DNA from: a virus
DNA length: 45,691 bases
Reading direction: 5' to 3' (one strand)
IMG/VR virus record: IMGVR_UViG_3300046474_000237
Location: 71,469 to 117,159 of that record
Shown: positions 13,267-44,724 of the stretch, piece after piece
Numbering within the stretch: the stretch's first letter is position 1
Layout: every line of letters begins with the position of its first letter
Program-made: the position numbers and the translations under genes
Notes under the pieces: generated by a model
What the model was told of the DNA's origin: nothing
The model's input: only the letters and a program-made list of their open reading frames with translations
The model's database searches: none

Positions 13267-13914
13267 ATGAATTATTCACGTATATACAGTAATCTTATTT
13301 TAAGAGCCCAGGTTAGAACTTTAGCCGAAGACGTCTACACAGAGAGCCATCACATTGTACCGAAATGCATTGGCGGAGATGATTCTAAGTCTAATTTAGT
13401 CGAACTTACGCCTGAAGAACACTTTTTAGCACATCAACTACTAACGAAAATACATCCAAATGAATATGGGCTAATCAAAGCAGCGAATATGATGACCGTA
13501 GTTGGTAACGGTCAAAAACGAAACACTAATAAACTGTTCGGATGGCTGAGAAGAAAACATTCAGAGGCGTGTAAAAATATGCCTCAAGAGCAGAGAGATA
13601 AAATAGCTGAATCGCTACGAGGTAGAGTACAAACAGAGGAACATGTTAAAAACATGATATCTGGCAGAGCAGGATATAGACACTCCCAAGAAACTATAGA
13701 AAAAATTAAAGCGTCTAATAAAGGACTCAAGCGATCAGAAGAAGCGAAGAAAAATATAGCAGCTTCTAAAGTCGGCAGACCTTCTCATAGAAAAGGTACT
13801 AAACATTCAGAGGAGTCTAAACTTAAAATGTCTTTAGCAAAGACTGGTAAAAAATACGGCCCCAGAGGGCCGTATAAAAAGAAAGTTACAAGCACTTCCG
13901 TTCAAGACATCTGA
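13267..13914 (+). CDS. HNH homing endonuclease with NUMOD3-like repeats
   Basis: A free-standing site-specific endonuclease of 215 residues on the strand opposite the late block. The HNH core is TESHHIVPKCIGGDDSKSNL followed by EHFLAH (His28/His29, Asn43, His52). The C-terminal half holds repeated basic helices of the type HSQETIEKIKASNKG and HSEESKLKMSLAKTG, which are DNA-binding NUMOD3 repeats. Its 3' end overlaps the tail gene at 13902 by 13 bases. Being antisense and free-standing, it is a mobile element whose target is probably in the homologous phage locus lacking it. Confidence 0.88.
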   Translation: MNYSRIYSNLILRAQVRTLAEDVYTESHHIVPKCIGGDDSKSNLVELTPEEHFLAHQLLTKIHPNEYGLIKAANMMTVVGNGQKRNTNKLFGWLRRKHSEACKNMPQEQRDKIAESLRGRVQTEEHVKNMISGRAGYRHSQETIEKIKASNKGLKRSEEAKKNIAASKVGRPSHRKGTKHSEESKLKMSLAKTGKKYGPRGPYKKKVTSTSVQDI

Positions 13915-19058: not shown

Positions 19059-19898
19059 GTGTCTATTTTAAATAAACAATACATTTGCAGCTTGAACCAA
19101 ATACTCGATAACTGTGTATTTGTCTGTCAACCTACCAGAGGTATCCCTCTAGGAGATTTTAAAGTATCTGGTGTGTACGCCATATTGAATACATATAATT
19201 CAAAGATTTACGTCGGACAAGCGGTAGATCTTAGGAACAGATATGAAAACCACTTTTATAGATTGAAAGCAGGAACTAGTAAAAATAAACACCTACAATC
19301 GGCCTGGGACTTATATGGCGAAATCAATTTTAGATTTTATATTCTTGAAGTATGTGAGATTGAACATTTGAACCAAAAAGAACAAACACTACTTGACACG
19401 TTTTTTGGAGAATTTTCTTACAACATGTGTCCAATTGCTAATTCTAGTCTAGGGTTTAAACATGAGGAGTCCACTATTCAGAACTTGAGAACAATTGCTA
19501 CCTCTGAAGAATCTAGAGAACGTAAATCAAAGATAGCAACTACTATGTGGAAAAACACAGAGCATCGAAATCACATTTCTAAATTAGCGTCTTCTCAATG
19601 GGAAAATGAAGAGTATAAAAACTACATGTTTACTAAAAGAGACGAATATTTAAATTATGAGAAAGGTAAGAAAGCTCTAAGTAATAAAAGCATTTCTCAA
19701 TGGCAAAATGAGGATTACAGGGCTAAGTTTGACAAAACAATATCGGATAAGCGAGCTTCTAGATTGGCTCACCTATCGGAGAAAGAAAGAAATAAGGAAG
19801 AGACCCGATTAGCAAAAAGAAAAATAGCTAATGATAAGTACTTATCCAAGAAAAAAGCAGAGCGTGAAGCCCTGCTTTCTAATAACCCTGCTATTTAG
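19059..19898 (+). CDS. GIY-YIG homing endonuclease
   Basis: 279 residues, antisense to the late block. The nuclease core has GVYAILNTYNSKIYVGQ (GVY at 38-40, YVG at 51-53), DLRNRYENHF (catalytic Arg59) and the metal-binding Glu108 in LNQKEQTLLDTF. The C-terminal 130 residues are highly basic helices with repeated SQW(E/Q)NE units, a DNA-binding tail. The start is a GTG at 19059; no strong ribosome site is seen, and no ATG lies before the core. Its last eight bases overlap the gp25-like gene. It is predicted to spread itself by cutting phages that lack it. Confidence 0.85.
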   Translation: MSILNKQYICSLNQILDNCVFVCQPTRGIPLGDFKVSGVYAILNTYNSKIYVGQAVDLRNRYENHFYRLKAGTSKNKHLQSAWDLYGEINFRFYILEVCEIEHLNQKEQTLLDTFFGEFSYNMCPIANSSLGFKHEESTIQNLRTIATSEESRERKSKIATTMWKNTEHRNHISKLASSQWENEEYKNYMFTKRDEYLNYEKGKKALSNKSISQWQNEDYRAKFDKTISDKRASRLAHLSEKERNKEETRLAKRKIANDKYLSKKKAEREALLSNNPAI

Positions 19899-20424: not shown

Positions 20425-20816
20425 TACATTGTACCTCCAGGTGTTACGATACCACTCAGCGTGCTAACAGTCGAAGTTTTAAGAGTCGAATAGTAATTCG
20501 ATTCATCAGTTGCTTCGCCTTGACCATCACCGTAGTAATCGCCTTTGTTCTTTGTTCTCATAGCAAATTCACGTAACACTGAAGTGATGTGATGAATACT
20601 CTCAATAGCAGCTCCGTTTGGGTAATTGGAACTGCCTGATTGAGCCATCGCTGTTACTCGGTGAAGCTCAGAAAAATCGATGGTTGTAACGTAATCGTTG
20701 AAATCCGGACAAGCGCCTCCATTGGCAAGGTATGCCGTCATGTCAGAGAAGTATTTAGCCAAACTGTTATAAATCGTTTGAGCTTGGCCTACTGCCGAAT
20801 TAGCGTCGATTGCCAT
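20424..20816 (-). CDS. Hypothetical protein between sigma factor and gp25-like gene
   Basis: 130 residues. The N-terminal half is helical (VGQAQTIYNSLAKYFSDMTA) and the C-terminal half is hydrophilic, with a DYYGDGQGEATDESNYYSTL segment. It shares one base with the genes on both sides (TAATG-type junctions), so it is translated together with them. No family is recognised. Confidence 0.6.
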   Translation of the reverse strand: MAIDANSAVGQAQTIYNSLAKYFSDMTAYLANGGACPDFNDYVTTIDFSELHRVTAMAQSGSSNYPNGAAIESIHHITSVLREFAMRTKNKGDYYGDGQGEATDESNYYSTLKTSTVSTLSGIVTPGGTM

Positions 20817-21532
20817 TATAGTCCGATTTCTTTCTTAGTTTTATCGATTTTATTAATCAACTGTTTCTTAATGTAATTGTAGCGATTAATGTTCACACCT
20901 AGCTTTGCTGCGATTTGTGGTGCTGGCATTTCTTTTACATTATCAAGAATAAATTTTTCATCAGGAGTTAGCTGACTTAGGAGATACTCCATAAGCTCGG
21001 CATTCTCGTTGTATTGCGTAAACTCAGCTGGTTTATCCGATGCTGATTCACTCAAGTCAGAGTATAGAGAATTCTTGTATTTTACAACTTGAGCTTTGGA
21101 CCAGCCAAGAGACTTAGCTAGTTCTTCTTCGGTTGGATCACGATTGAGCTGATCTGCCAATTCTTGATTGCTAGCGTTCCATTGACGGTACAATAGCTGC
21201 ATATTTTCCGGAAGACGAACAGCATTTTGATATTTGTAATTTAGTCTTCGAACACGCTGGAGATAGTTCGTTACGTGAGTCGATAACTGCGTACCCTTTG
21301 AAGGATCGTAGGTCTTAATACCATTGATAGCCCATTTTTTAGCTTCTGCACTCAAAGCAGCGCTAGGAAGACTACCTGATTGACGATTAACTTCTTGGAA
21401 GATAACGCCACTGAGCTGATTTACAAGCTTGCCAAGATCATGCTTACTACCAGTCTGTTTCCATTGGTCAAACAGTTCTCGGTCTTTTGATCGATAATCG
21501 ATAAACTCTGGCTTTGCTGTTTCTTCTGTCAT
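20816..21532 (-). CDS. Sigma-70-family RNA polymerase sigma factor
   Basis: 238 residues. Region 2 lies around residues 65-107: GIKTYDPSKGTQLSTHVTNY with the following RVRRLNYKYQNAVRLPE, the core-binding and -10 recognition helix. A region 3-like block is LADQLNRDPTEEELAKSLG at 125-143. A C-terminal region 4 helix-turn-helix includes APQIAAKLGVNINRYNYIKK at 204-223. It should bind host core polymerase and direct it to phage promoters. Its start overlaps the upstream stop as TAATG. Its placement inside the baseplate operon is unusual and suggests expression with, or self-reinforcement of, late transcription. Confidence 0.85.
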   Translation of the reverse strand: MTEETAKPEFIDYRSKDRELFDQWKQTGSKHDLGKLVNQLSGVIFQEVNRQSGSLPSAALSAEAKKWAINGIKTYDPSKGTQLSTHVTNYLQRVRRLNYKYQNAVRLPENMQLLYRQWNASNQELADQLNRDPTEEELAKSLGWSKAQVVKYKNSLYSDLSESASDKPAEFTQYNENAELMEYLLSQLTPDEKFILDNVKEMPAPQIAAKLGVNINRYNYIKKQLINKIDKTKKEIGL

Positions 21533-31677: not shown

Positions 31678-33288
31678 TTAAAAATCAAATACGTTGTTCT
31701 CTTTAATCTCGTCCACCGTTGTGAACTCACCCTTAAGAACCATATACGCTATATTAGCGAAAACTACACTGTGGAACCAATCATCACACAAGTCTTCATC
31801 TTTTTTATACAGACGACGCCCAGTCACGGATTCTTCTTCGAAAATGTTCAATGCGTCCTGCCAGAATTCAGACATCAGGTTCCAACAAGGAGTCTCGATA
31901 CGATCACGGCCAATCTTAGCCTTCAATACAATCGTGTCCATGTTCGTTGTTCGATCTGCTGAAAAGAACTGTCCTTCTCTGTCCCAACGAAGCGTAGACT
32001 TTGCTGCTACATATTGTACAGAATTTACTTTATCCTGGCCAATACTTTTTCTAAGCAATTCTACTTGTAACTGGCCAACACCACGGTCTGAAGCAAGCAT
32101 TGTACATTTGTATTTTGCGTATAGTTCTTCAACACGCTTAACCTGATCAAGAATATCAATACCATTCAGGCGCTGGGCGTAAATAAGATATCCCTTACCA
32201 TTCCAGTCGTAACCCATGATTGTAATAACGGTGTATGAATTAGAACCACCACTTACTGACCAGTCTACTCCAAGCACAGTATGGAGAATATTACGTTCAT
32301 CCATTGGGAAACCCTTATCCCACTCTGTCTTGTTATTGTTACAACATGCCATTACTTCTTTAAGTGATAGTGGACGACCAGCTAGACCGCTAGGGCATCC
32401 AAACACTTCGTTAGCAAGCTTAGGCACTGAATAAGTCTTGGCCTTATGAAGTAGATCCTTCCACTTCTTAGGTCTCGTACGTGCAGGGAAAATAAGCTGA
32501 GGTAAATGAAACCCGTAATGGTCTTTCTCAGCAGGTTTTGCTGCCACCCATTTACCAGTGGACATATCGAGCAGACCTCCGCAGTACACACAGCCTGGAC
32601 CTTCTTTATTGGCATGCAGAATCGTATGGCAAATATCGAAATCAAGGGGTAGCGTGTACTTATTGCAATGCGTACATCTAACCGCCCACTCCATCATGTT
32701 CGATTGCTTGAACTTCTGTGTGAGTGAATTAGTCTCTGTTTTAGCCGTGCCTGTGTATCGTCTGAATGCAAAGTCTGAAGCACCCAACGTTTCTGCAAGA
32801 ATAGGGGCACATTCAAGACTGGTATCTTGGAACTCATCTAGGTACAGAGCGTCAGCGAAGACTCCACGAATACGGTCGGCGTCTTGTTCTGTTTCTGCGT
32901 AACCCAATGTTACAGCACTGCCATTAGTAAATGACTTTGAGAATACGTTCTTACGTGAGCCCGCATCAACGAAGTGCTTACGGATAAGAGGGGAACTTAA
33001 GAAGGGATCTAAATATGCTGTTGAGAATCGTGATGTCTGTTGAGACAATGGGCTACTGAACAGAGTCGAAAAGTGAGGGCGAACTAGACTGTTGGCTACA
33101 ATAGCTGCGCCAAGAGATACTGATTTGCCAATCTGCCGACCTGCCATCAAAGTCATTTCATTAGGAGAAACGTCATAGATGATTTCAAACGGCTTGTAAT
33201 CTTCGAGATTGAGAGGCTTACCTTTAAGAGTGAGCAGAGCTTTGGAAATCTCGGAGGGCTTTAGTTTTAAAAGGCTTTCTTTGTCCAT
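31678..33288 (-). CDS. Terminase large subunit
   Basis: The DNA packaging motor and nuclease, 536 residues. Walker A is GRQIGKS (50-56), Walker B is ADALYLDEF with Asp151-Glu152, and coupling motif TGTAKTETNS is near 179-188. A zinc-binding pair CTHC (205-208) and CVYC (233-236) follows, as in GpA-type terminases. The nuclease domain begins LGVDWSVSGG with the metal-binding Asp342. An AGGA ribosome site precedes the ATG. It heads the minus-strand late block. Confidence 0.92.
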   Translation of the reverse strand: MDKESLLKLKPSEISKALLTLKGKPLNLEDYKPFEIIYDVSPNEMTLMAGRQIGKSVSLGAAIVANSLVRPHFSTLFSSPLSQQTSRFSTAYLDPFLSSPLIRKHFVDAGSRKNVFSKSFTNGSAVTLGYAETEQDADRIRGVFADALYLDEFQDTSLECAPILAETLGASDFAFRRYTGTAKTETNSLTQKFKQSNMMEWAVRCTHCNKYTLPLDFDICHTILHANKEGPGCVYCGGLLDMSTGKWVAAKPAEKDHYGFHLPQLIFPARTRPKKWKDLLHKAKTYSVPKLANEVFGCPSGLAGRPLSLKEVMACCNNNKTEWDKGFPMDERNILHTVLGVDWSVSGGSNSYTVITIMGYDWNGKGYLIYAQRLNGIDILDQVKRVEELYAKYKCTMLASDRGVGQLQVELLRKSIGQDKVNSVQYVAAKSTLRWDREGQFFSADRTTNMDTIVLKAKIGRDRIETPCWNLMSEFWQDALNIFEEESVTGRRLYKKDEDLCDDWFHSVVFANIAYMVLKGEFTTVDEIKENNVFDF

Positions 33289-34072: not shown

Positions 34073-34082
34073 TTTGGTATAA
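34073..34082 (+). promoter_or_regulatory. Extended -10 promoter-like motif, copy 2 (Ubl gene)
   Basis: TTTGGTATAA, in an AT-rich stretch, 74 bases before the ubiquitin-like gene. It matches the other five copies except that the base after it is C, not G. Confidence 0.7.
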
Positions 34083-34156
34083 CTATATTGGACAGGTAGA
34101 AAATACATTTCCAAAGTCCATTCTTTTCTTTAGCTAAAAACAAGGGATTTACAAAC

Positions 34157-34579
34157 ATGGCTGCAACCGTAACCAAGACTATCGTTACCATCGCTTCGAC
34201 CGACACCGAGTACCAAATTCCGGGCGATTACACGCCTGCTTCGATCCAACGCAACTACGCTAACGATATTCCTAATATCGGCAGCATGCAGTTCGAAGAA
34301 CGTGTCGTGACGCAAGACGGTGAAACGGTTCGTGAGATCACCTTCAAGCCCCGTACGGGCACCAAGGGTGCTGGCGTAACGAAGACCATCGTGACCATCG
34401 CTTCGACGGACACGGAGTACCAAATCCCGGGTGACTATACCCCGGCATCGATCCAACGCAATTATGCGAACGACATTCCGAACATCGGTTCGATGCAGTT
34501 CGAAGAGCGTGTTGTGACGCAAGACGGCGAGACCGTCCGTGAAATCACCTTCAAGCCGCGTACCGGCACGAAGGGTTAA
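34157..34579 (+). CDS. Tandem ubiquitin-like protein (PRTRC-C type di-Ubl)
   Basis: 140 residues: MAAT, a 67-residue unit, Ala-Gly, then the same 67-residue unit again, identical in every residue. Each unit runs from VTKTIVTIAS to PRTGTKG. The length, beta-grasp-like pattern and terminal GTKG resemble the PRTRC system protein C family of small ubiquitin-like proteins as I recall them. The second copy ends in a free glycine at the stop codon, as needed for E1 activation. The first would need cutting after TKG, a job suited to the JAB peptidase encoded downstream. Codons are rich in C/G-ending forms compared with neighbours, suggesting high expression. Homology to PRTRC-C is by pattern; conjugation is inferred. 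Confidence 0.8.
   Translation: MAATVTKTIVTIASTDTEYQIPGDYTPASIQRNYANDIPNIGSMQFEERVVTQDGETVREITFKPRTGTKGAGVTKTIVTIASTDTEYQIPGDYTPASIQRNYANDIPNIGSMQFEERVVTQDGETVREITFKPRTGTKG
34169..34576 (+). repeat. In-frame tandem duplication, identical protein, diverged DNA
   Basis: Copies at 34169-34369 and 34376-34576 (201 bases each) are separated by an Ala-Gly dipeptide codon pair. By direct comparison 30 of 67 codons differ, all silently, including a Ser AGC versus TCG pair that needs three base changes. No amino-acid change is seen. Confidence 0.93.
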
Positions 34580-34617
34580 GAATTACTTCAGTTGCTTTTA
34601 GCCACTGAGTAGTGATA

Positions 34618-34657
34618 CGAGCAGCAGGGTTCACTCCTAGCCACGCTGCTCGTTTTT
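34618..34657 (+). terminator. Terminator after the Ubl gene
   Basis: Perfect 8-bp stem CGAGCAGC/GCTGCTCG followed by five T. It lies between the Ubl gene and the rest of the cassette, so most transcripts should carry Ubl alone with limited read-through to the enzymes. Confidence 0.88.
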
Positions 34658-34719
34658 CCTGTTTTTTTTAGTCGAGCTAGGAGCTTAAGAAAAACGGGAA
34701 TAACTCAAGGACAATAAGA

Positions 34720-35625
34720 ATGCAAACTTTTAAAGTACCTCGCTCAGAATCTGATTTGCCTCGGCAACTTCAGAAGATGAGACTAGAAGCAGAAGAGAAG
34801 CTCAGAGTATTCTGTACAAAGAAGATCCTGGATCATAAGCTCTCCACTAAAACGTTTAATTATCAGTTCGACATCTCTGGTGCAAGAGCTGGCGGTCAAC
34901 GTAAGTCTGTTCAAAAGCTTAAAGATATTCTGTACAAAGCAGTAAAGAAACAAGTTCCTTATATTGAGTATATTGCCGGTGGCGATATCATTATCAATAG
35001 TACTTCTTCAAATGCCGTTGCTTTAAAAATCGTATCTCCGTATATGACTTTTGATGTAGAACCTTGGGATTCGATAAGTACTTTGAGCGAAAGAATGCAC
35101 TGGGTAAGGTCGATGCGCAGATACACTAAGTATTTGAACTTTAAGTGTATGAGAGGTGGTATTCCTTTGAACTTAGAGCGTATTCGATTTACCCATGAAA
35201 CTCATCCTGAAGATATGAATGCGTTTCATGCATGGAATCAAACCCAGGCTAGTCCATGTAAAGTGCGGATGCGAATCACTCTTACGGCCAAGCTTTCGAT
35301 AAGAGGATATTTTTACGACGAGTATGTAAGAGTTATAACTAACAATCTTGTTGATGGCATCAATACATACGAAGACTACGAAAACTATCTTATTGAATAT
35401 AAGCATAACGAGAGATTGGCCTCATTAAGAGACGTTAGAAATTGGGAAACTTTCGATATCACGTCTCGTCGGGTACCTACGTTTTATCCTGGGGTTGAGA
35501 AATACGTGTCTGCTGAGAAAATCTTCCTGATACTGGAAGAACTTCAACAGGTTATTAAAACACTTTCCAGAAAAGTTAGCTATGATACTGCAGCGTTTAA
35601 TATCGGAAGCAGCGAAGCTTCCTGA
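34720..35625 (+). CDS. Unrecognised component of the Ubl cassette
   Basis: 301 residues with an AAGGA ribosome site. The protein is basic and looks alpha/beta. Notable stretches are YQFDISGARAGGQRKSVQKL, YIAGGDIIINS, SPYMTFDVEPWD and PCKVRMRITLTAKLSIRGYF. I see no match to ParB, PRTRC-D (actin-like), PRTRC-E or PRTRC-F. It is probably cotranscribed with the E2-like and JAB genes, since it overlaps the next gene and no terminator lies between. It may be a substrate, an adaptor or a new enzyme; no function is proposed. Confidence 0.7.
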   Translation: MQTFKVPRSESDLPRQLQKMRLEAEEKLRVFCTKKILDHKLSTKTFNYQFDISGARAGGQRKSVQKLKDILYKAVKKQVPYIEYIAGGDIIINSTSSNAVALKIVSPYMTFDVEPWDSISTLSERMHWVRSMRRYTKYLNFKCMRGGIPLNLERIRFTHETHPEDMNAFHAWNQTQASPCKVRMRITLTAKLSIRGYFYDEYVRVITNNLVDGINTYEDYENYLIEYKHNERLASLRDVRNWETFDITSRRVPTFYPGVEKYVSAEKIFLILEELQQVIKTLSRKVSYDTAAFNIGSSEAS

Positions 35626-35836
35626 TCTGTCACAAGAAGTAAAAAGTGTCCAGGAGAAGTTTAAAACTATCGGTGAAGAACTGGGTCACAAGGAACTCGA
35701 ACTTCTAATGATCGTAACTTGTAAGACGTTTGCATGTGAAAACAATAGCAGACGCAGAGTGGATCTTAAGAACATCGAAGCAAACATCGTAAAAGCCAAG
35801 CATGCGGCTGTTGAGGAAGAAGAGGATTTCGTATGA
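35582..35836 (+). CDS. Small charged helical protein in the Ubl cassette
   Basis: 84 residues, overlapping the upstream gene by 44 bases and the E2-like gene by four (ATGA). The first 60 residues form heptad-like helices (LSQEVKSVQEKFKTIGEELG). A VTCKTFACENNSRRRVDLKN segment carries two Cys, and the end is very acidic (EEEEDFV). No family is recognised. Tight coupling to the E2-like gene suggests a partner subunit. Confidence 0.65.
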   Translation: MILQRLISEAAKLPDLSQEVKSVQEKFKTIGEELGHKELELLMIVTCKTFACENNSRRRVDLKNIEANIVKAKHAAVEEEEDFV

Positions 35837-36588
35837 GCGATATTACTATTGAAACGGCTAGCGTTGACGTTAGTGCTGTAGCAGAGGAAAACCTCGTTGA
35901 TACCAAGGGTCAGCACATCATCCTTCTGGAAGATTGCGTGGCAGTAGTAATTGGTGATGACACCAGCAGTATTGAGAAGCGAATCACGTATGAAGATTTC
36001 GGTAACATCATCAGTGCTGTGCTGAATCGTCGTAATGAAGAATCGCTTGAAGGTTTCCAACTTCCTGCAAACTGTTTCTTCTTTGCAAAGTCTGGTACAT
36101 CGATTCAGCTCAGTTGTTATTATGCAGAACGTGTCGCTGAGATGCAGCATCTTGACAGAAAGTATACGGTCAAGACTCCGAATATCATCATCAGCCATAA
36201 GTTAGAAAAGCATAATAACAAGCAATGGAGAACGGTTGGATCACGATTCTTCTGTACGGATAAGAGATCAGGTGCTTTGTCGAAGGGTTTGATCTGGGAT
36301 CAGAATCCGACTAATCGTGTATATCTGTCTCCGTTTCCGAACACATACGCAGAAGGTCATATGTGCTATGGCGGAAACTCGATGCCTTCACATTTCCAAG
36401 ACAACAATCTGCAAGGCTTGAATTGGTATTATCAGTTCCTGTTTGAATCTCCGTTTAACAATGACTTGGGTTTGCGCTCGTTAAAAGAAGAGGTTGTTGC
36501 ACAAGATTGGTTCAAGACTCTTGAAACAGCAGCTAAGAACAACGAGCCGTTCCCGTATGAAAAACTCCGTGGTTATACGAAACCCTAA
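35833..36588 (+). CDS. E2-like protein, PRTRC-B / prokaryotic E2 family D type
   Basis: 251 residues. The central pattern LPANCFFFAKSG, then NRVYLSPFPNTYAEGHMCYG, matches PRTRC system protein B as I recall it: a PxNVYxxGxVCxG-like block in proteins classified as prokaryotic E2-like. Cys178 in HMCYGG is the candidate catalytic or thioester Cys that would take the Ubl from the E1. The N-terminal 70 residues are acidic. The gene is coupled upstream (ATGA) and followed by the JAB gene after 14 bases. Family assignment is fairly confident; E2 activity is inference, since few of these have been tested. Confidence 0.75.
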   Translation: MSDITIETASVDVSAVAEENLVDTKGQHIILLEDCVAVVIGDDTSSIEKRITYEDFGNIISAVLNRRNEESLEGFQLPANCFFFAKSGTSIQLSCYYAERVAEMQHLDRKYTVKTPNIIISHKLEKHNNKQWRTVGSRFFCTDKRSGALSKGLIWDQNPTNRVYLSPFPNTYAEGHMCYGGNSMPSHFQDNNLQGLNWYYQFLFESPFNNDLGLRSLKEEVVAQDWFKTLETAAKNNEPFPYEKLRGYTKP

Positions 36589-36602
36589 GTAATTAAGGAT
36601 AT

Positions 36603-37934
36603 TTGAAAATGGAAATCATCAGCCAACACATCAGCTGCGTAGTTCTTCCCAACGAGCTTCAAACTGCAATTGAAGCTGGTTATAGCGAAATCTACGCTAT
36701 GACGAGTGAGGGTATTGTCAAGCATCACAAGCTTCGTGGTCGTAATCGTTTCGTTCGTCTTAAGGTTGACAAGCTTCCGGCTAACTACAAGGAAGAAAAG
36801 GTTTCTCAAGAAATCAACTTCCTGCCTGATGGCAAGATTCCGATTCAGTTGTTCGATCAAGTCGTGGCATTCTTCAAGCAAGTCATGGAAGTGAAGAAGT
36901 CCGAGCTTGAAGCAATGATTTGGGTTTGTTGGGATCAAGAAAGTGGTTATCATCTGATTGTCCCTGAACAACGTGTGTCAAAGGCTTCGGCTTCGTATGA
37001 CTGGGCTTCGTTGCCTGCTGGTAAGACTATCGTCTGTGATATTCATAGTCACAATACGATGGGTGCATTCTTCAGCGGTACAGACAACCGTGATGACCAA
37101 GGCAATATCGGATTCTCCGGTGTTGTTGGCCGTCTGAAGGATGAAACTCCGCAGACAGTGTGGCGCTTTAACTACAAGGATAAGAAAATCGAATGTGAAT
37201 TCGATGACATCTTTGTTCTCCCGGTTCGTGAAGAGCAAGCAATTCCTGAAGATTGGATTTCCAAGATCGTGACTACGAGCACTGGGTATTCGACGGGAGG
37301 GAACAACCAAAAGGGAAAAGCGGATCATCTCAAACCCTGGCAGTACAAAAGGGGAGAAAACACAAGCGAAGGAAATCGGGCAGGTCCACATATGCTGGCT
37401 CACGATAGGGGGTTACTTCCCGATGGTTATGGGAACTATTGGGAGGAGCGTTTCGGATCCGAGGCAGCTAACCTTTCCGGAGGTGGAGGATTTCCTTGGG
37501 AGTCCTGGGCCTTCAACCCCGACGATGTAGATGCTGATGGAATCATTGATCCTTCGAAGCTTACTCTGGACAAAGCAGAACGTGCTTTGGCAGTGCTCCG
37601 TGAAGATCCGGGGTATGAGGATTCACATCTAGACTACAGTCCCCGTGTTCACCCGTATAATCCTGACTTCGATCCTGACGTTAACACCACGTTTGACTGT
37701 GATGAGCGGTATGAAGAAGTCAAGGAAGAACACGGTAAAGACGTTGCTGACATCTTCTGTTTGATCGATGATGGGATGTCTGTTCTGAATGGCAAAGATG
37801 ATCTCGTTCGTAACCTGATGAGCGACATGATTCACATGATGTCCGAAGAAGGTCAAGAGGAATTGTTCAGAGACTTGTATCAGGAACTTCCTGACAAGGC
37901 TCAAGAACGAATCCAGATGAACGGTATTCACTAA
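36603..37934 (+). CDS. JAMM/JAB metallopeptidase, PRTRC-A type
   Basis: 443 residues. The JAMM motif is complete: DIHSHNTMGAFFSGTD gives His146, His148, Ser156 and Asp159 in H-x-H-x7-S-x2-D. An upstream Glu (99 or 101) in SELEAMIWVCWD completes it. YHLIVPEQRVS before and VVGRLKDETPQTVWRF after match PRTRC protein A. It is predicted to be a zinc isopeptidase that processes the Ubl precursor or removes Ubl from targets. Residues about 230-443 are an extra acidic, Gly/Asp-rich, probably helical C-terminal region beyond the usual PRTRC-A length. A ribosome site AAGGA precedes the start. Confidence 0.88.
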   Translation: MKMEIISQHISCVVLPNELQTAIEAGYSEIYAMTSEGIVKHHKLRGRNRFVRLKVDKLPANYKEEKVSQEINFLPDGKIPIQLFDQVVAFFKQVMEVKKSELEAMIWVCWDQESGYHLIVPEQRVSKASASYDWASLPAGKTIVCDIHSHNTMGAFFSGTDNRDDQGNIGFSGVVGRLKDETPQTVWRFNYKDKKIECEFDDIFVLPVREEQAIPEDWISKIVTTSTGYSTGGNNQKGKADHLKPWQYKRGENTSEGNRAGPHMLAHDRGLLPDGYGNYWEERFGSEAANLSGGGGFPWESWAFNPDDVDADGIIDPSKLTLDKAERALAVLREDPGYEDSHLDYSPRVHPYNPDFDPDVNTTFDCDERYEEVKEEHGKDVADIFCLIDDGMSVLNGKDDLVRNLMSDMIHMMSEEGQEELFRDLYQELPDKAQERIQMNGIH

Positions 37935-37943
37935 GTATAAGAG

Positions 37944-37970
37944 GCGCTCCTAATCGAGCGCTTCTTTTTT
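37944..37970 (+). terminator. Terminator after the JAB gene
   Basis: Stem GCGCTC/GAGCGC with a CTAATC loop, followed by TTCTTTTTT. It closes the unit of four genes 34720-37934. Confidence 0.85.
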
Positions 37971-37981
37971 AGAGAGTTGAA

Positions 37982-38101
37982 ATGAGCGATACAACTGAAC
38001 TCTGGTTGTTGTATGTGTGGAATAAGAACTGGCACATGCAATCTGGCAGTGTTATGGAATGCTCGTATGCTGAGTGGCTCGAAATCATGGGGTACAAATG
38101 A
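37982..38101 (+). CDS. Tiny protein, 39 residues
   Basis: The frame runs MSDTTELWLLYVWNKNWH to a stop that overlaps the next start (ATGA). An AGAGAG element precedes the ATG. It is rich in Trp and aromatic residues. It is likely real because of the coupled junction and good codon use, but no function is seen. Confidence 0.5.
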   Translation: MSDTTELWLLYVWNKNWHMQSGSVMECSYAEWLEIMGYK

Positions 38102-38367
38102 AAGACCATGAAATTCGTGAATTAGTTTCCCAGTTGACGGAAGTAGCCGAGCAATACGGTCAGACACAACAATTGCGGGAACGTATCCGTGGAGTAGTGT
38201 TCCCATTTGTAGGAAAACTTCAAGACAGGGATACTCGTAGAGTGTCAATGAAGGAAGGCTTCGACGCTCAGCGTCAAGCAGGGATTAACGTTGATTGGTT
38301 TACTTGGCAAATAGCTTGGCAGGATGCGCTTATTGTTAGGGAGTCTGAAAAATTCACTTCAACATGA
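38098..38367 (+). CDS. Small helical protein, 89 residues
   Basis: Start chosen at the ATG at 38098, which overlaps the upstream stop; a GTG at 38074 would add eight residues. The protein is charged and mostly helical (EIRELVSQLTEVAEQYGQTQ) and ends in a Trp-rich helix (DWFTWQIAWQDAL). Its stop overlaps the next start. No family is recognised. Confidence 0.6.
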   Translation: MKDHEIRELVSQLTEVAEQYGQTQQLRERIRGVVFPFVGKLQDRDTRRVSMKEGFDAQRQAGINVDWFTWQIAWQDALIVRESEKFTST

Positions 38368-38468
38368 CTGAATGGTTCCTATATTTTCTGTCGTGCAAAG
38401 GTACTAAACGCGCTTTCAGAAATTACGAACACTTTCTTGAATGGTTAGCAGAGGCTAACAATGACTGA
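38364..38468 (+). CDS. Tiny protein, 34 residues
   Basis: An ATG overlapping the upstream stop begins MTEWFLYFLSCKGTKRAFRN and ends after EANND. The coupled junctions on its 5' side suggest it is translated. Function is unknown. Confidence 0.45.
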   Translation: MTEWFLYFLSCKGTKRAFRNYEHFLEWLAEANND

Positions 38469-38486
38469 ACAAAAGGAAGTATTTAA

Positions 38487-38696
38487 ATGATTTGCGTATA
38501 CTGCAAAGAAGATAAAGAGACAAGACCATACGGTCCTAACTTTTCAGCAATCTGTTTCAGATGTATGATGGCTACGCCTGAACGAGAGGCTGAAGCTTCC
38601 AAGAATTATCTTGCTCAACTCGATGCTTGTGGCGGTGTAGCCATCATCGGAGAAGAGACTGGACCTCGTCCTTTAAATACCGATTCTTTGGTATAA
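38487..38696 (+). CDS. Small zinc-ribbon-like protein
   Basis: 69 residues. CVYC (residues 3-6) and CFRC (about 23-26) form a C-x2-C...C-x2-C zinc-ribbon-like pair, and a helical tail follows. An AAGGAA ribosome site lies upstream. The promoter-like motif for the E1 gene overlaps its 3' end. Phages often carry such small zinc proteins with no known role. Confidence 0.6.
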   Translation: MICVYCKEDKETRPYGPNFSAICFRCMMATPEREAEASKNYLAQLDACGGVAIIGEETGPRPLNTDSLV

Positions 38697-38697
38697 G
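38687..38697 (+). promoter_or_regulatory. Extended -10 promoter-like motif, copy 3 (E1 gene)
   Basis: TTTGGTATAAG overlapping the end of the zinc-ribbon gene, 76 bases before the ThiF/E1 gene. It gives the E1 its own promoter, separate from the Ubl and E2/JAB units. Confidence 0.72.
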
Positions 38698-38773
38698 AAT
38701 ATTGAACGGACCAACACGTCCTTAAACAAGGTCATTGCGCCTATATGTTGTCTAACCTCAGGAGTTAATTTTT

Positions 38774-40039
38774 ATGTTTACTTTCCGTCCTTCCTCGATT
38801 CCCTCGAACATTTTCGTAGTTGGCTGTGGAGGAACTGGTTCACGACTCGTACCGGCATTGATTCAGTTCATTCGTTCAATCACGAAAGAACACGTGCCCT
38901 CTGGCTGGCTTGGAACTACGAACATCGTCCTGGTTGACGGTGACGTAGTGGAACAGAAGAATCTGATTCGTCAGAACTTCGTTCAGAGCGATGTGGGTAA
39001 GAACAAGGCCTTGGTTCTGGCAAATCGGTATGGTAAGGCGTATGGGATGAATGTTGTTCCGTACATGAAGTACATCGAAGAAGGTACGAATCCGCAGAAC
39101 TTCCGTAGTCTTCTAAATGAAGCCACTGGTCTTAATTTGACCAATAACTACAACGACATGGTAATCATGTGCGTTGATAGTGCCAAGGCTCGTCGTATTG
39201 TTATTCAGGCACTGCAGGGCGTATACGGGGAGAATACTGTATTTATCGATGCTGGTAACGAAGATAGTTTCGGTCAGGTTCGCATGTTCCACAATGCAGT
39301 TCTTGTGGACCATAGGTTCCAGAATGAAGAGGTGGCTCGTAAAAAATACAAAAATCCGGAACGCATTGAGTTTGTACCTGAGCCTTTGAATTTCATTCCG
39401 TTCGATTTTCATTTTTATCGTGATTTGGAAGATAACCCTGGACTCGGTAGTTGCGCAGATCTAGATCAGACGTTGGCTATCAATTCTTTGATGGCAATGT
39501 ACATTCTGTCTTTTGTTCAGAACCATTACTATAACAAGGTTATCGACTACAACGCAGTATCAATCGATATCGTTAAAGGCTCTACAGCCTATACGAAAAA
39601 CACTGTTGTAGAGTATCGTAATAAAATGATTCACAGCGGTACCACCATTCGAAGTATTGGAGTAGATGACGGAATGCTCCTTCATGTGCAGCAGAGCGCT
39701 GGAGATGATGATTTACTAGGTCAGTTCCTTCATCAAAATACTGAAGCTGTTAATGCTCTCCTCGCTGCTCAAACTGTCGGTGCCCCGGTAGTTGAAGAAG
39801 TTAAGGCAGCAGCTCCGAAGAAGAAAACGAAGGTGAAGGAACTACGTCCAGTGATTCAAGTTGAGCCGATGAATGTAGAGATTTCCACGATTACATTCAA
39901 CGCTGAACCGTTGGTCGGTGAAGCAAGTGGTCCTGCGTTGGTTGACTTTGAAGCTGAAGCTAACAACGACACGTTTGCACTTCCTGAATCAGTACCTCCT
40001 GCGACGGGTAGCGTCTGGGACAATGTAGATCAATTCTAA
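38774..40039 (+). CDS. E1/ThiF-like activating enzyme, PRTRC-ThiF type
   Basis: 421 residues. The Rossmann nucleotide-binding loop is VVGCGGTGSRL (16-25). LVDGDVVEQKNLIRQNF (53-69) is the ThiF/E1 ATP-contact motif. The candidate catalytic Cys227 is in GLGSCADLDQTLAINSLMAM, the Cys-containing segment of PRTRC ThiF proteins. It should adenylate the C-terminal Gly of the Ubl and perhaps form a thioester. Residues after about 320 are a Lys/Val/Glu-rich, disordered-looking extension. It has an AGGAG ribosome site, its own promoter-like motif and a terminator. Confidence 0.88.
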   Translation: MFTFRPSSIPSNIFVVGCGGTGSRLVPALIQFIRSITKEHVPSGWLGTTNIVLVDGDVVEQKNLIRQNFVQSDVGKNKALVLANRYGKAYGMNVVPYMKYIEEGTNPQNFRSLLNEATGLNLTNNYNDMVIMCVDSAKARRIVIQALQGVYGENTVFIDAGNEDSFGQVRMFHNAVLVDHRFQNEEVARKKYKNPERIEFVPEPLNFIPFDFHFYRDLEDNPGLGSCADLDQTLAINSLMAMYILSFVQNHYYNKVIDYNAVSIDIVKGSTAYTKNTVVEYRNKMIHSGTTIRSIGVDDGMLLHVQQSAGDDDLLGQFLHQNTEAVNALLAAQTVGAPVVEEVKAAAPKKKTKVKELRPVIQVEPMNVEISTITFNAEPLVGEASGPALVDFEAEANNDTFALPESVPPATGSVWDNVDQF

Positions 40040-40181: not shown

Positions 40182-40784
40182 TTAATCTGGCATATTTGGC
40201 CAGAATCTATTTCCTTTAGAAATGTTCTCTGTAGCAGTTAGTATTTGTAAATTGAACTGATTATGTAGCCCGCAGACTAATTCATTCTGCAATGGAACTA
40301 TATGATCTACGTGGTGTGTAATACCAGTTTTTTCAGAAAGTTTAATAGACTCTGCATAGAATAACTTCATAGCTTCTAAATCTGCCCAAACTGGAGTAGC
40401 TTGCAATTTGGCCGCTCGTCTATTTGAATTTTTGAAGTAAACTTTATCTAGGTTCTGTTTTTGCCAATTCCTAGAATAGGCCCTACATAGATCAGGATTA
40501 GCTGCGTAAAAAGCTCTACGTCTAGCTCGTTCTGTTTCGAGATTGTTTAAATAATATTGACTATTGTACTTGATAATCTTATCAGTATTTTTATCTTTAT
40601 AAGATTTACATTGTAAACGTTCTTTTTCTCTAACTTCAGGATTTTGCCTACGTTCTTTTTTACAAGCCTCGCAATATCCGTTATTTACAAATCGTTTTGA
40701 GAAATGTCCGTTTTTGCAAGGCTTTCCAGTAAAGTACTTTATTAAGCCGTTTGTCTTAGCTTCGATTCTAGAAATTACATTCAC
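40182..40784 (-). CDS. HNH homing endonuclease
   Basis: 200 residues. A Cys cluster (GKPCKNGHFSKRF, then GYCEACKKER) is followed by basic helices. The HNH core is THHVDHIVPLQ, CGLHNQFNLQIL and ENISKGNRFWP. This is the phage homing endonuclease type with an N-terminal zinc finger. It lies at the end of the minus-strand virion gene cluster, in the same direction, unlike the other two endonucleases here. It is a probable mobile insertion. Confidence 0.88.
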   Translation of the reverse strand: MNVISRIEAKTNGLIKYFTGKPCKNGHFSKRFVNNGYCEACKKERRQNPEVREKERLQCKSYKDKNTDKIIKYNSQYYLNNLETERARRRAFYAANPDLCRAYSRNWQKQNLDKVYFKNSNRRAAKLQATPVWADLEAMKLFYAESIKLSEKTGITHHVDHIVPLQNELVCGLHNQFNLQILTATENISKGNRFWPNMPD

Positions 40785-40791
40785 AGCGTTA

Positions 40792-41199
40792 TTACGAAAT
40801 ACGTTCTCTGCTTGAAGTTGTTAGATTATCCACCACTGTGAATTGCGCAAGTGTGGTGCCATCCTGTCTAAGCATAATCAATGTACCAGCGGTCTTATCC
40901 CATGACCAAGAACCAATAGCTTCATCTTGAATATTTTTGGTAATAGTATAGAGTGACTGGGTTACTACGTTTACAACGCCTTGAAGTTGACCGAATGCGT
41001 AAAGGATATAAGTACCTGTTACTGTCGGAGTAAAAGTCATCTTGTAAAGAGGACCTGAGACTGGTGCAAACGTAACCGGAAGAACGCTAACAGCACCATT
41101 AAAAAGTAGGATCTGATCAGGCGGGGCTGTAAGGCCAGAACTTGGACCTTGAGCAATAATGCTAACTGGGTTGTTTACTTCGATTTCGATTGAATACAT
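40792..41199 (-). CDS. Virion-type beta-rich protein
   Basis: 135 residues. VSGPLYKMTFTPTVTGTYIL is an Ig-like or head-fibre-like strand pair. The C-terminus WSWDKTAGTLIMLRQDGTTL resembles a repeated short module seen at the ends of phage structural proteins. It shares one base with the upstream gene. The exact role is unknown. Confidence 0.55.
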   Translation of the reverse strand: MYSIEIEVNNPVSIIAQGPSSGLTAPPDQILLFNGAVSVLPVTFAPVSGPLYKMTFTPTVTGTYILYAFGQLQGVVNVVTQSLYTITKNIQDEAIGSWSWDKTAGTLIMLRQDGTTLAQFTVVDNLTTSSRERIS

Positions 41200-41762
41200 T
41201 AGTCACCGCCCATTTCTTTGATATATCGCCTAATAGCTTTCTTCTTATTTTCTGTATCTTCTGAAGTCTGACCGGCTTCTAGCATTTCTGAAGGAATAAA
41301 ATCAAACGGTGCTACAGGCTCAGAGTAACCTTCTTGGCGTAACATGTATGCAGCTGTAGTTACAAGACCTGTTGCCTCTAGTGGTACATAAATACCATTC
41401 TCTACTAGTACCTTACGTACCTCTGTAATTGCGTATGCAAGTTCTAGAGTTGTAGGAGCAGGTACGAATTCAAAGTCTGCTTCGATGTTGTTAATAACAT
41501 CTGTTGCATATAGAGTAAATGCAGCGTCTTCAAAGAAAAGTTCAGGCTGGCCTTCGATAAGCTGAAGAACACTGATCTTGTCCCGAGTAAGCCCGTCAAG
41601 TACCATTCCTAGAGTAATAGAGATAGTCTCGATTTCGAGTTCTCTCCATTCACCTTTACCGAAGATACGATCCAGAGTGGTCTTAATATGTGAAATTGAA
41701 GCCATCGCCATCCTAGGATCCGGGGCTTTCAATTCAATGCCGATATCTTCTTCTTCAAACAT
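41199..41762 (-). CDS. Hypothetical protein in virion gene cluster
   Basis: 187 residues, acidic and helical. EWRELEIETISITLGMVLDG, DKISVLQLIEGQPELFF and DVINNIEADFEFVPAPTTLE are the main stretches, and the end is basic (KKKAIRRYIKEMGGD). Two bases separate it from the next gene upstream. No family is recognised. It may be a head or neck protein. Confidence 0.6.
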   Translation of the reverse strand: MFEEEDIGIELKAPDPRMAMASISHIKTTLDRIFGKGEWRELEIETISITLGMVLDGLTRDKISVLQLIEGQPELFFEDAAFTLYATDVINNIEADFEFVPAPTTLELAYAITEVRKVLVENGIYVPLEATGLVTTAAYMLRQEGYSEPVAPFDFIPSEMLEAGQTSEDTENKKKAIRRYIKEMGGD

Positions 41763-41764
41763 AC

Positions 41765-42652
41765 TTATACGTTGTTAGTTAAATGCAGAGCAACTTTTTG
41801 CAGATCCATCGGCAGTGTCTCAAGTACTTGCTTGAAATGTACTGGGCCGTGATCAAACTCATTGCCAATATCTGCACCCATCATTGATGAGAAATGGCCT
41901 TTGCCGAGCTTTGCAATCTTTTCAAAAGGAACGTCTTTTCCGCAAAGCCTGACATTCAGAGATGATCTGATTGCAGCTTCTTTAGTGAAAATCGTTTCAT
42001 TGTAGAAATTGTAGCCTCTTGTTGTGAGACCCGCTTGCTTATCCATTTCTGAAATTGTATCACAAATGTCGCGGACTGTCTCAGGCTTGATTTGACCAGG
42101 TAGCTTATGGATTGCTGAAGCAAGTTTTACAAAGGATGCATTCTTTGTTTCATAGAAACGATTAGCAAGAGCCTTTACAGCAGCTTCTTTATTCAGATAA
42201 CCATGACCTGAATATCGAATAACAGCGTCGCTAGGTTCAATACCCTTTTCTTTAGCTTCGTCATAAAGCTCGGAAGCTTGCTTTGAAAGTGTACCGTTTA
42301 CACGAAGACCTGAGAGTTCGCCTTCGAAGAAAGCTTGTTTAGTTAGGTAGTCGTCAGTAGCGATTGCAGCAGCAGTGGCTGTACGCTGAGCAGCAGCCTT
42401 AACCATACGGTCAGTAAGAGCTGTGACTTCTGTCTGTACGCCGTAGGCTTCAACAGCTTTTGCAACCTTATCTAGCGCAAAAACGTCTACGGCCTTGTAA
42501 GCGACTTTTTCATGGTACTTCATTTGCAGAGCTGTAGCAATGCAAGAATCCTTGTTGTCAAGGGGCATTTCTTGGTCAACAGAAGCCTGCTTAACGAATG
42601 AAGCTGCTTCTGGCACAAGATCGAGAATTTCTTTAAGTGTGTATGCTAGCAT
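41765..42652 (-). CDS. Virion-associated protein with repeated K-x-A motifs
   Basis: 295 residues, helical and Ala/Lys-rich. About twelve short motifs of the form Lys-x-Ala recur through its length (FVKQAS, HEKVAY, LDKVAK, LTKQAF, LSKQAS, LNKEAA, FVKLAS, MDKQAG, FTKEAA, FEKIAK and others), most preceded by a hydrophobic residue. They could be processing or packaging signals or helix-packing marks. No family is recognised. It precedes a gene for another virion-like protein. Confidence 0.6.
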   Translation of the reverse strand: MLAYTLKEILDLVPEAASFVKQASVDQEMPLDNKDSCIATALQMKYHEKVAYKAVDVFALDKVAKAVEAYGVQTEVTALTDRMVKAAAQRTATAAAIATDDYLTKQAFFEGELSGLRVNGTLSKQASELYDEAKEKGIEPSDAVIRYSGHGYLNKEAAVKALANRFYETKNASFVKLASAIHKLPGQIKPETVRDICDTISEMDKQAGLTTRGYNFYNETIFTKEAAIRSSLNVRLCGKDVPFEKIAKLGKGHFSSMMGADIGNEFDHGPVHFKQVLETLPMDLQKVALHLTNNV

Positions 42653-44150: not shown

Positions 44151-44704
44151 GTGTCCAGTTTTGTCCAAAAGTGTCCAGTTTCTTCAAAAGGCTGAGATCC
44201 TTACTGGGTAAGGCTTTGCGGGCGGTGTGTCCAGTCTGTCCAATTTTCAAATAAAAAACTGGACAGGCTCAAACCCATACGGAATAAGGCTCACAGCGAT
44301 TTTGTCCAGTTTTTTTGAAGATTTTGGAAAAACCATACCTCACTTCCTTTTACAAATAAAAAATAAGCAAAATAGAAAACACATTCTCTTATATATAAAT
44401 ATATTTTTTAAAAGTTCAAATATAAATATATATATAGTACCCCCATATTTCTGGACTGTTAGGGTGAACCCTAAGTTTTTCCTTTTTTGTTTTTTATTTA
44501 GTCAAAAAGAAAGTGAGGTATGGTTTTTGGAAAAAAGGCGAAAAAACTGGACAAATCCCCTCAAAGCCTTACTGGGCTTGGGTTTCAGCTGTCCAGTTTT
44601 TTTTAGAGAAATTGGACACACTGGACACGTCGGCCGCAAACCCTTACTGGGCTTGGGTTTCAGGTTTTCGAAGAAACTGGACACTTTTGGACAAAACTGG
44701 ACAC
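44151..44704. repeat. Giant imperfect palindrome, about 550 bp, gene-free
   Basis: The two arms pair at one centre near 44428. The 35-base block 44151-44185 is the exact reverse complement of 44670-44704. The 18-base block 44328-44345 is the exact reverse complement of 44511-44528. Intervening blocks such as AACTGGACAG and TTGTCCAATTT also pair in order. The centre (about 44385-44440) is extremely AT-rich with TATATA runs. The arms carry ten GTCCAGTTT boxes in both orientations. Candidate roles are origin of replication, partition or recombination site, or a long hairpin RNA. The region 43946-44807 holds no gene that I accept. Confidence 0.88.
44567..44663. repeat. Direct repeat within the palindrome arm
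   Basis: A 22-base unit starting CCTTACTGGGCTTGGGTTT occurs at 44567-44588 and again at 44642-44663. A related, inverted form appears near 44268-44290 in the left arm. Confidence 0.8.
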
Positions 44705-44724
44705 TTTTGGACAAAACTGGACAC
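44675..44724. repeat. Tandem 20-bp iterons
   Basis: The unit AACTGGACACTTTTGGACAA repeats two and a half times head to tail. Each unit includes one GTCCAGTTT box in reverse orientation. The next box (44737-44745) overlaps the promoter-like motif at 44745. Confidence 0.88.

Follow-up and report, generated by a model that had tools for sequence, protein, structure and literature searches.

What use does a tailed phage have for a complete set of genes for ubiquitin-like (Ubl) protein conjugation? The question is raised by a stretch of 45,691 nucleotides (hereafter the window), positions 71469–117159 of the 117-kb virus record IMGVR_UViG_3300046474_000237 of IMG/VR, in which the genes for a Ubl, an E2-like conjugating protein, a JAB/JAMM metalloprotease and an E1 adenylating enzyme lie together on the + strand (34157–40039). 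On balance, we believe that these genes constitute a core Ubl-conjugation pathway of the phage, which probably acts while virions are assembled or, carried by the virion, as infection begins. The basis of this reading is the genes themselves, their order, their conservation, the predicted fold of the Ubl and the co-occurrence of the set in related phages. To our knowledge, the biological role of the PRTRC or type 6d Ubl cassettes has been open since their prediction in 2006. A literature search (without subscription journals or preprints) returned, among the matches listed, neither a functional study of such cassettes nor a report of a full Ubl cassette in a phage.

The Ubl cassette and its enzymes

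The Ubl is specified as a tandem precursor of 140 amino acids (34157..34579, +) in which MAAT is followed by unit 1 (34169–34369), the dipeptide AG and unit 2 (34376–34576). The E2-like protein (35833..36588, +) matches Prok-E2_D (1.2e-8), and its presumed catalytic residue, Cys178, lies in the motif PFxNxYxxxxxCxG. The metalloprotease (36609..37934, +) matches Prok-JAB (6.7e-10) and PRTRC_A (1.2e-21, residues 74–195), past which it carries a C-terminal extension of roughly 240 amino acids; numbered from the ATG at 36609, its JAMM residues are Glu101, His146, His148, Ser156 and Asp159. The E1 (38774..40039, +) contains a single ThiF domain (1e-14, residues 11–176) with the nucleotide loop GCGGTGS, as well as Cys227, and has a tail of roughly 150 amino acids past its match to PRTRC_ThiF (6.7e-26, residues 11–269). 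In Pfam the E2, JAB and E1 matches all exceed the gathering scores. No second Ubl, E1, E2 or JAB was found in the 117-kb record. An earlier note on this DNA, made from its letters alone, had described a di-Ubl ending in GTKG, an E2-like protein with Cys178, a JAMM motif and an E1 with GCGGTGS and Cys227, all on one strand within 6 kb (34073–40039). Every one of these elements is present, with Glu101 as an addition; the end of that span is correct, while its start precedes the first gene (34157) by 84 bases.

E1 Cys227, E2 Cys178 and the five JAB residues are identical in 9/9 aligned sequences. The catalytic residues were also aligned across 29 phage-clade rows, four of ten plasmid loci and Burkholderia phage BgVeeders33. 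Among the phage-clade rows, Cys227 of the E1 and Cys178, N170 and P167 of the E2 are conserved in 29/29, the glycines of the E1 nucleotide loop are invariant or nearly so, and the JAB catalytic columns reach 28/29 or 29/29. The columns at 28/29 are explicable by two intron-split sequences, L025 and L026, each of which was aligned as half a protein. L025–L027 have a JAB gene that is split in two; in L025 (7743–8077) and L026 (6975–8093) a group I intron-like insert interrupts it inside the JAMM (HSH/NTM) codons, with Rfam matches of E 1.6e-5 and 2.6e-6, respectively, both below the gathering score. The L026 insert holds an open reading frame (ORF) for a LAGLIDADG endonuclease on the opposite strand, and the L025 insert is shorter. 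Mobile introns tend toward conserved, needed genes, and intron-like inserts in these codons bear on the importance of the JAB and of the module.

When solved structures were searched by sequence, the E1 profile reached a ThiF-type entry (9egc) and the NEDD8 E1, and none matched the JAB profile. PADLOC returned E1-E2 models for the E1 alone (best 1.3e-6) and no model for Ubl, E2 or JAB. Ubl conjugation chemistry is likely for the phage set.

The tandem Ubl precursor

Both 67-amino acid Ubl units end in RTGTKG, and the duplication was picked up by tandem-repeat detection (34168–34576, period 207). The units specify the same protein, yet they differ at 32 nucleotides, in 30/67 codons and at 19/34 fourfold sites. 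The Ubl protein is identical in contigs L001–L004, of which L001 is identical to the window in this comparison and may be the same phage; L002 shares with the window 74% identity in E1, 71% in E2, 87% in JAB and 54% in gp301, a further cassette protein described below. Unit 1 of the window differs from unit 1 of L002–L004 at 10–12 nucleotides and from its own unit 2 at 32, which indicates that the duplication predates these phages and that the protein has been held constant. Identical repeats despite synonymous codon changes are a polyubiquitin-like pattern. The farther relative L005 has one unit, with 66% identity.

Among relatives the precursor comprises 1–5 units, which end mostly in GTKG and in some cases in GNKG or similar. 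Some precursors continue into a C-terminal tail, which would need trimming: that of Vibrio phage D69 has three units followed by INYSK, and that of Bacillus phage KLEB27-3 four GVKG units and a tail. GxKG keeps both of its glycines and its lysine in 60/60 aligned units, these being the window unit and 59 of the 77 units extracted with a model that was itself built from GxKG-ended units; weak matches in L080, L083 and L088 show no clear GxKG. The earlier note had made its reading depend on conservation of the Cys, JAMM and GTKG residues among homologues; the Cys and JAMM residues are conserved, and so is the ending in the form GxKG.

The same note had supposed a beta-grasp fold for the 67-residue unit, and this fold is indeed predicted. 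The AlphaFold model runs strand-strand-helix-strand-strand with a loose C-terminal tail, at a mean predicted local distance difference test score (pLDDT) of 86. VIA-align gave modest Z values near 5, to MoaD (5.2), the TINCR Ubl (5.0) and ubiquitin (4.8), with proteins G and L scoring alike; we take all five to be one beta-grasp fold class. Foldseek gave no match at E 0.001 or below, and the fold assignment rests accordingly on the topology and the VIA-align scores.

Distribution and genomic position

IMG/VR was scanned with profiles of the E1 (best 80 of 145 loci) and the JAB (best 80 of 170), and known loci were added. The 164 E1-hit loci form 100 clusters at 90% identity, and in 66 of these, Ubl, E2, JAB and E1 follow one another on a single strand in a span of no more than 8 kb. 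The other 34 do not show the full ordered set; among them are clusters cut off by a contig end, clusters whose members are undetected or displaced, and some twenty divergent clusters that have only JAB and E1. That the arrangement goes beyond chance is evident from these 66/100 clusters, the 9/9 invariant columns and the detected Ubl repeat.

On the Ubl side, the neighbour in the window is a divergently transcribed gene for the terminase large subunit (31678..33288, -; phrog_675, 1.8e-56), with 46% identity to the terminase large subunit of Salmonella phage Arash; on the E1 side are three convergent genes, c1–c3 (40792..42652, -), whose position is conserved across the phage family. The Ubl gene stands back to back with the terminase gene in both the window and Arash, and virion genes converge on E1. 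In D69 the terminase gene is located elsewhere, apart from the Ubl gene. In 26 of the 66 full-set clusters a divergently oriented terminase of the window's family is the neighbour, at a distance of no more than about 4 kb, and the convergent gene c3 is present in 28.

A survey of related phages for co-occurrence, as the earlier note had suggested, was made with a terminase profile. It yielded 56 loci, of which the 38 with at least 6.5 kb of upstream sequence were counted, some being near-copies. All four genes are present on 38/38 contigs, upstream beside the terminase on 36 and at another place on the remaining two (L033 and L044). Of the 18 loci with a shorter flank, nine contain at least the Ubl; the other nine, each with less than 1 kb upstream, show none of the genes. 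Among 50,697 phage records, terminases with more than 40% identity were limited to Arash, D69, D181 and D148, and 4/4 of these match E1, JAB and E2 (the Ubl was checked in Arash and D69); the 32 other terminase matches, at 23–26% identity, include none of the nine E1 matches. A DNA-level search of phages gave zero matches. Cellular relatives were found at 45 loci, with best segments of 25–40% identity, in a pattern-based scan of one genome from each of 84,980 species; many of these hits come from Clostridia/Oscillospiraceae.

An E1 tree was built by a quick method from 67 of the 100 clusters, one of them represented by the window, and ten plasmids, with long branches flagged. In it, one branch (99% support) unites 28 phage-family rows with a single other viral row, and 9/10 plasmid E1s fall in a separate starred branch (98%) with 22 other viral rows. 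The tenth plasmid E1 (Planococcus) is a long row outside the phage branch. Four further loci (L009, L074, L087 and L089) belong to a different E1 lineage; in them the E2 gene follows E1 at a distance of several kb, and the extraction model found no Ubl.

In this family of large tailed phages the module looks core; among phages in culture it seems rare. It is apparently a fixed part of these phages and not an optional extra.

The virion proteome of phage Arash

The 2023 paper on Arash reports 116 of 252 proteins in sucrose-gradient-purified particles (PMC10585845), and the results given here concern the available portion of that paper and its protein list; the word "ubiquitin" is absent from its main text. 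For seven tested proteins, Gp229–Gp238, the published coverages fit the GenBank lengths by number. Those of Gp244, Gp247, Gp248 and Gp251 fit, among gp240–gp251, only gp243, gp246c, gp247c and gp250c. Past gp239 the numbers in the paper appear to run one ahead of GenBank OQ632216, "Gp247" of the paper being gp246c; the chance of the offset-of-one fit is about 7e-7 for one offset, and four were tried.

Re-indexed in this way, the virion list contains the E1 (3 unique peptides), the JAB (2), the homologue of gp301 (2) and the E2 (5). The E2 coverage is 100%, so that its assignment rests on the offset alone. The homologues of c1–c3, namely Arash gp245, gp243 and gp242 (Gp246, Gp244 and Gp243 of the paper), are likewise in the list, as are all five genes labelled "structural" in GenBank, from gp241 to gp248c. 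These labels include the Arash E1 and E2; gp243, gp247c and gp250c are labelled hypothetical. The small cassette protein does not appear in the list. We regard the Arash proteome as moderate support for a virion role.

Accessory proteins and other features

Two genes lie between those of the Ubl and the E2: gp301 (34720..35625, +), in the position that PRTRC_F holds in plasmids (slot F), and the small gp84 (35582..35836, +), which overlaps the gp301 and E2 genes. Both had been put forward as components newly added to the cassette. This is not supported. BLAST links gp301 to homologues in 44 loci (some of which overlap), Arash gp250c among them, and the protein sits where plasmids have PRTRC_F; homologues of gp84 were found only in L001–L005, with small genes at the same place in Arash and D69. 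Pro80, Arg134 and Tyr135 of gp301 are invariant (24 rows). For its AlphaFold2 model, of mixed helix and strand (pLDDT 78), no PDB entry reached Z 5 and Foldseek returned nothing at E ≤ 0.001, which does not prove a new fold. Homology of gp301 to PRTRC_F was considered and rejected, since the profile-profile probability of 0.1–0.4% leaves position alone as the shared feature. Slot-F proteins diverge even among plasmids, and by BLAST those of L033, L035, L036, L038, L041, L042 and D69 have no detected similarity to gp301. In the divergent member L115 the slot-F protein has 774 amino acids and the E1 ORF is about 1,050 codons long. Our guess is that gp301 and gp84 are probably E2 partners or target adaptors.

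Between the JAB and E1 genes are small ORFs, among them two accessory genes, gp89 (38098..38367, +; phrog_38634, 4.9e-10), which codes for a small phage protein, and gp69 (38487..38696, +; phrog_18256, 1.2e-22), whose product has two CxxC pairs. Scans for promoters and terminators gave signal at chance level only.

Elsewhere in the window, likely homing endonuclease genes stand between virion genes at 19059–19898, 13267–13914 and 40182–40784; they gave GIY-YIG (9.5e-8) and NUMOD3 (7.8e-10) matches and include an HNH-looking ORF without a Pfam match. Short repeats around AAACTGGACACTTTTGGACA, with a period of 19–20, occupy 44151–44724, near the record end. The virion gene block also contains a sigma-70-region-3 protein (20816–21532) with 44% identity over 223 amino acids to Arash gp10; this sigma factor, Gp10, has 467 spectra in the Arash virion list, where RNA polymerase beta and beta' also occur.

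Proposed function and alternatives

In the pathway that we favour, the JAB would cut the tandem Ubl after each GTKG, and the E1, to judge from its family, would adenylate the new C-terminal glycine and take the Ubl on Cys227. The E2 would then receive it on Cys178 and hand it to a target lysine, from which the JAB could strip it again. The constant position of the genes close to those for the terminase and virion proteins, together with the apparent co-purification in Arash, argues for a role in assembly or carried by the virion and not for plasmid-style segregation. Perhaps, and we put this forward more tentatively, a lytic phage family depends on a viral, polyubiquitin-like pathway of its own, in which the Ubl is placed on and removed from assembly proteins and the enzymes travel in the virion, and which serves the particle of the virus and neither defence nor segregation.

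Several points weigh against the pathway that we favour. No Ubl conjugate was observed, no solved structure matched the E2 profile by sequence, and the E1 was matched by just 9 of the 50,697 phage records. The sequences behind the terminase profile came from 16 cassette-bearing phages, which means that the survey was not fully blind, the search itself being ignorant of the cassette. The identification in Arash depends on a numbering shift inferred here, GenBank keeps the JAB and slot-F proteins as hypothetical, and the cassette proteins have low peptide counts in the available list. The authors allow for carry-over (PMC10585845), and replication enzymes are also among the 116 proteins, which makes co-purification weak evidence. 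The Ubl is not in that list, though tryptic peptides are expected from it, and this argues against virions that are heavily and stably decorated with Ubl. Cleavage of GTKG by trypsin falls after the lysine and leaves one glycine on the target lysine (+57.02146 Da, computed), a remnant with the mass of a common iodoacetamide artefact, which may explain how conjugation could be missed. Some of the phages that carry the cassette as a fixed part of their morphogenesis region are in culture (Arash and D69), so that its function is testable by single-gene deletion in laboratory strains.

The chief rival reading, which we consider rather unlikely, holds that the enzymes are packaged and injected as agents of takeover: an early-made Ubl would tag host proteins, in counter-defence or takeover, and the JAB would protect phage proteins or strip host tags. 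This fits the re-indexed Arash list, which has the E1, E2, JAB and slot-F protein and not the Ubl, and host Ubl systems that attack phage tails are described in the available part of PMC11364771. The presence in Arash virions may, however, be carry-over, and the set occurs on 38/38 contigs, at a fixed place on 36. Counter-defence genes are usually sporadic. The earlier note had proposed that the phage uses the system to tag virion or host proteins or to counter defence; tagging of virion proteins remains a live hypothesis, whereas counter-defence as the main role is weakened because the cassette is fixed and not sporadic.

A second alternative, which appears improbable, is that the Ubl is a sulfur carrier in the style of ThiS or MoaD, activated by the E1 so that a small molecule, a nucleotide or a tRNA can be thiolated, with no conjugation to proteins. 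The E1 does match ThiF-type enzymes, and the Ubl has MoaD (Z 5.2) among its best structural matches, but an E2-like protein with an invariant cysteine and a JAMM protease are encoded alongside, and Pfam found no rhodanese domain in the eight cassette proteins.

It is less probable still that the Ubl and the enzymes are non-catalytic assembly scaffolds, with a JAB that merely trims the Ubl. The genes do lie near virion genes, and the available text of PMC1779556 places a Ubl-like TAPI and a JAB-bearing TAPK in lambdoid tail assembly; the (near-)invariance in 29 rows of the E1 loop glycines and cysteine and of the E2 cysteine would nevertheless be unexpected for dead scaffolds. That the phage captured a true PRTRC cassette from a plasmid and uses it to maintain or segregate its genome is scarcely credible and, as to membership, largely refuted: the order C-F-B-A-ThiF, with gp301 in the F slot, is that of plasmids, but searches for ParB, D, E and F did not find these families, all four scores lie below the cut-offs, the E2 histidine is present in 0/29 rows, none of the ten plasmid rows falls in the E1 branch and the location is a morphogenesis region.

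Comparison with known systems

The PRTRC cassettes have related Ubl, E2, JAB and E1 proteins, and the genes C-F-B-A-ThiF stand at the same positions in the window and four plasmids. The full plasmid order is ParB, E, C, F, B, A, ThiF, one of the four having no annotated ParB alongside. Profile searches against PRTRC A, B, C and ThiF, as advised in the earlier note, gave related matches, all four below the curated NCBIfam cut-offs: PRTRC_A scored 77.2 versus 101.8 bits, PRTRC_B 29.3 versus 131.45, PRTRC_C 15.1 versus 45.95 (E 0.019) and PRTRC_ThiF 91.1 versus 144.75. The E2 had been called PRTRC-B-type, a label that we withdraw, as we do PRTRC-C for the Ubl, both being too far from the models. 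The reported absence of ParB and of the actin-like PRTRC_D was borne out, each being found in 0/10 records (the 117-kb record and nine others, several of them fragments, the Arash and D69 records being 181–187 kb). PRTRC_E and PRTRC_F were each found in 1/11 records, solely in BgVeeders33. A histidine after the cysteine (FTHPN-type) is present in 5/5 PRTRC-type E2 rows versus 0/29 phage-clade rows, which have instead an invariant Asp211 one residue past that position. The phage proteins are also longer, with medians of 416 (E1) and 417 (JAB) amino acids versus 253–271 and 213–268 in five PRTRC-type loci, and the phage set sometimes has a tandem Ubl and usually adjoins the terminase. The below-cut-off scores, the missing partners and the lack of the E2 histidine rule out canonical PRTRC membership.

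Type 6d systems, as described by Iyer, Burroughs and Aravind in 2006, comprise a Ubl, an alpha-helical protein, an E2-like protein with an absolutely conserved histidine downstream of the cysteine, a JAB with an N-terminal domain and an E1, and the table in the available text names bacteria and not phages (PMC1779556). The phage set resembles them in its separate Ubl, Cys-bearing E2, unfused JAB and E1, single neighbourhood and extra protein. It differs in lacking the conserved histidine. The type 6d extra protein is described there as largely alpha-helical with conserved charged residues; gp301 is of mixed helix and strand and has the invariant Pro80, Arg134 and Tyr135. The phage set works like PRTRC/type 6d systems, yet it is a separate lineage.

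Type 6e systems share tandem Ubl repeats, but their JAB is fused to the E1 and their E2 is inactive; the phage JAB and E1 are separate and E2 Cys178 is conserved in 29/29. TAPI and TAPK likewise combine a Ubl-like protein and a JAB domain among phage assembly genes, although in the available text neither E1 nor E2 is named in the lambdoid tail gene set (PMC1779556). Bil (BilABCD) also joins a Ubl with conjugating enzymes; its reported target, in the portions of the papers available, is a phage central tail fibre (PMC11364771, PMC11354881). It is host-encoded and anti-phage, and BilD has two adenylation domains versus the one ThiF domain of the phage E1. If proteins of the particle are modified by the phage cassette, these phages would build or arm their virions with a Ubl pathway, mirroring the tail-tagging defence of bacteria.

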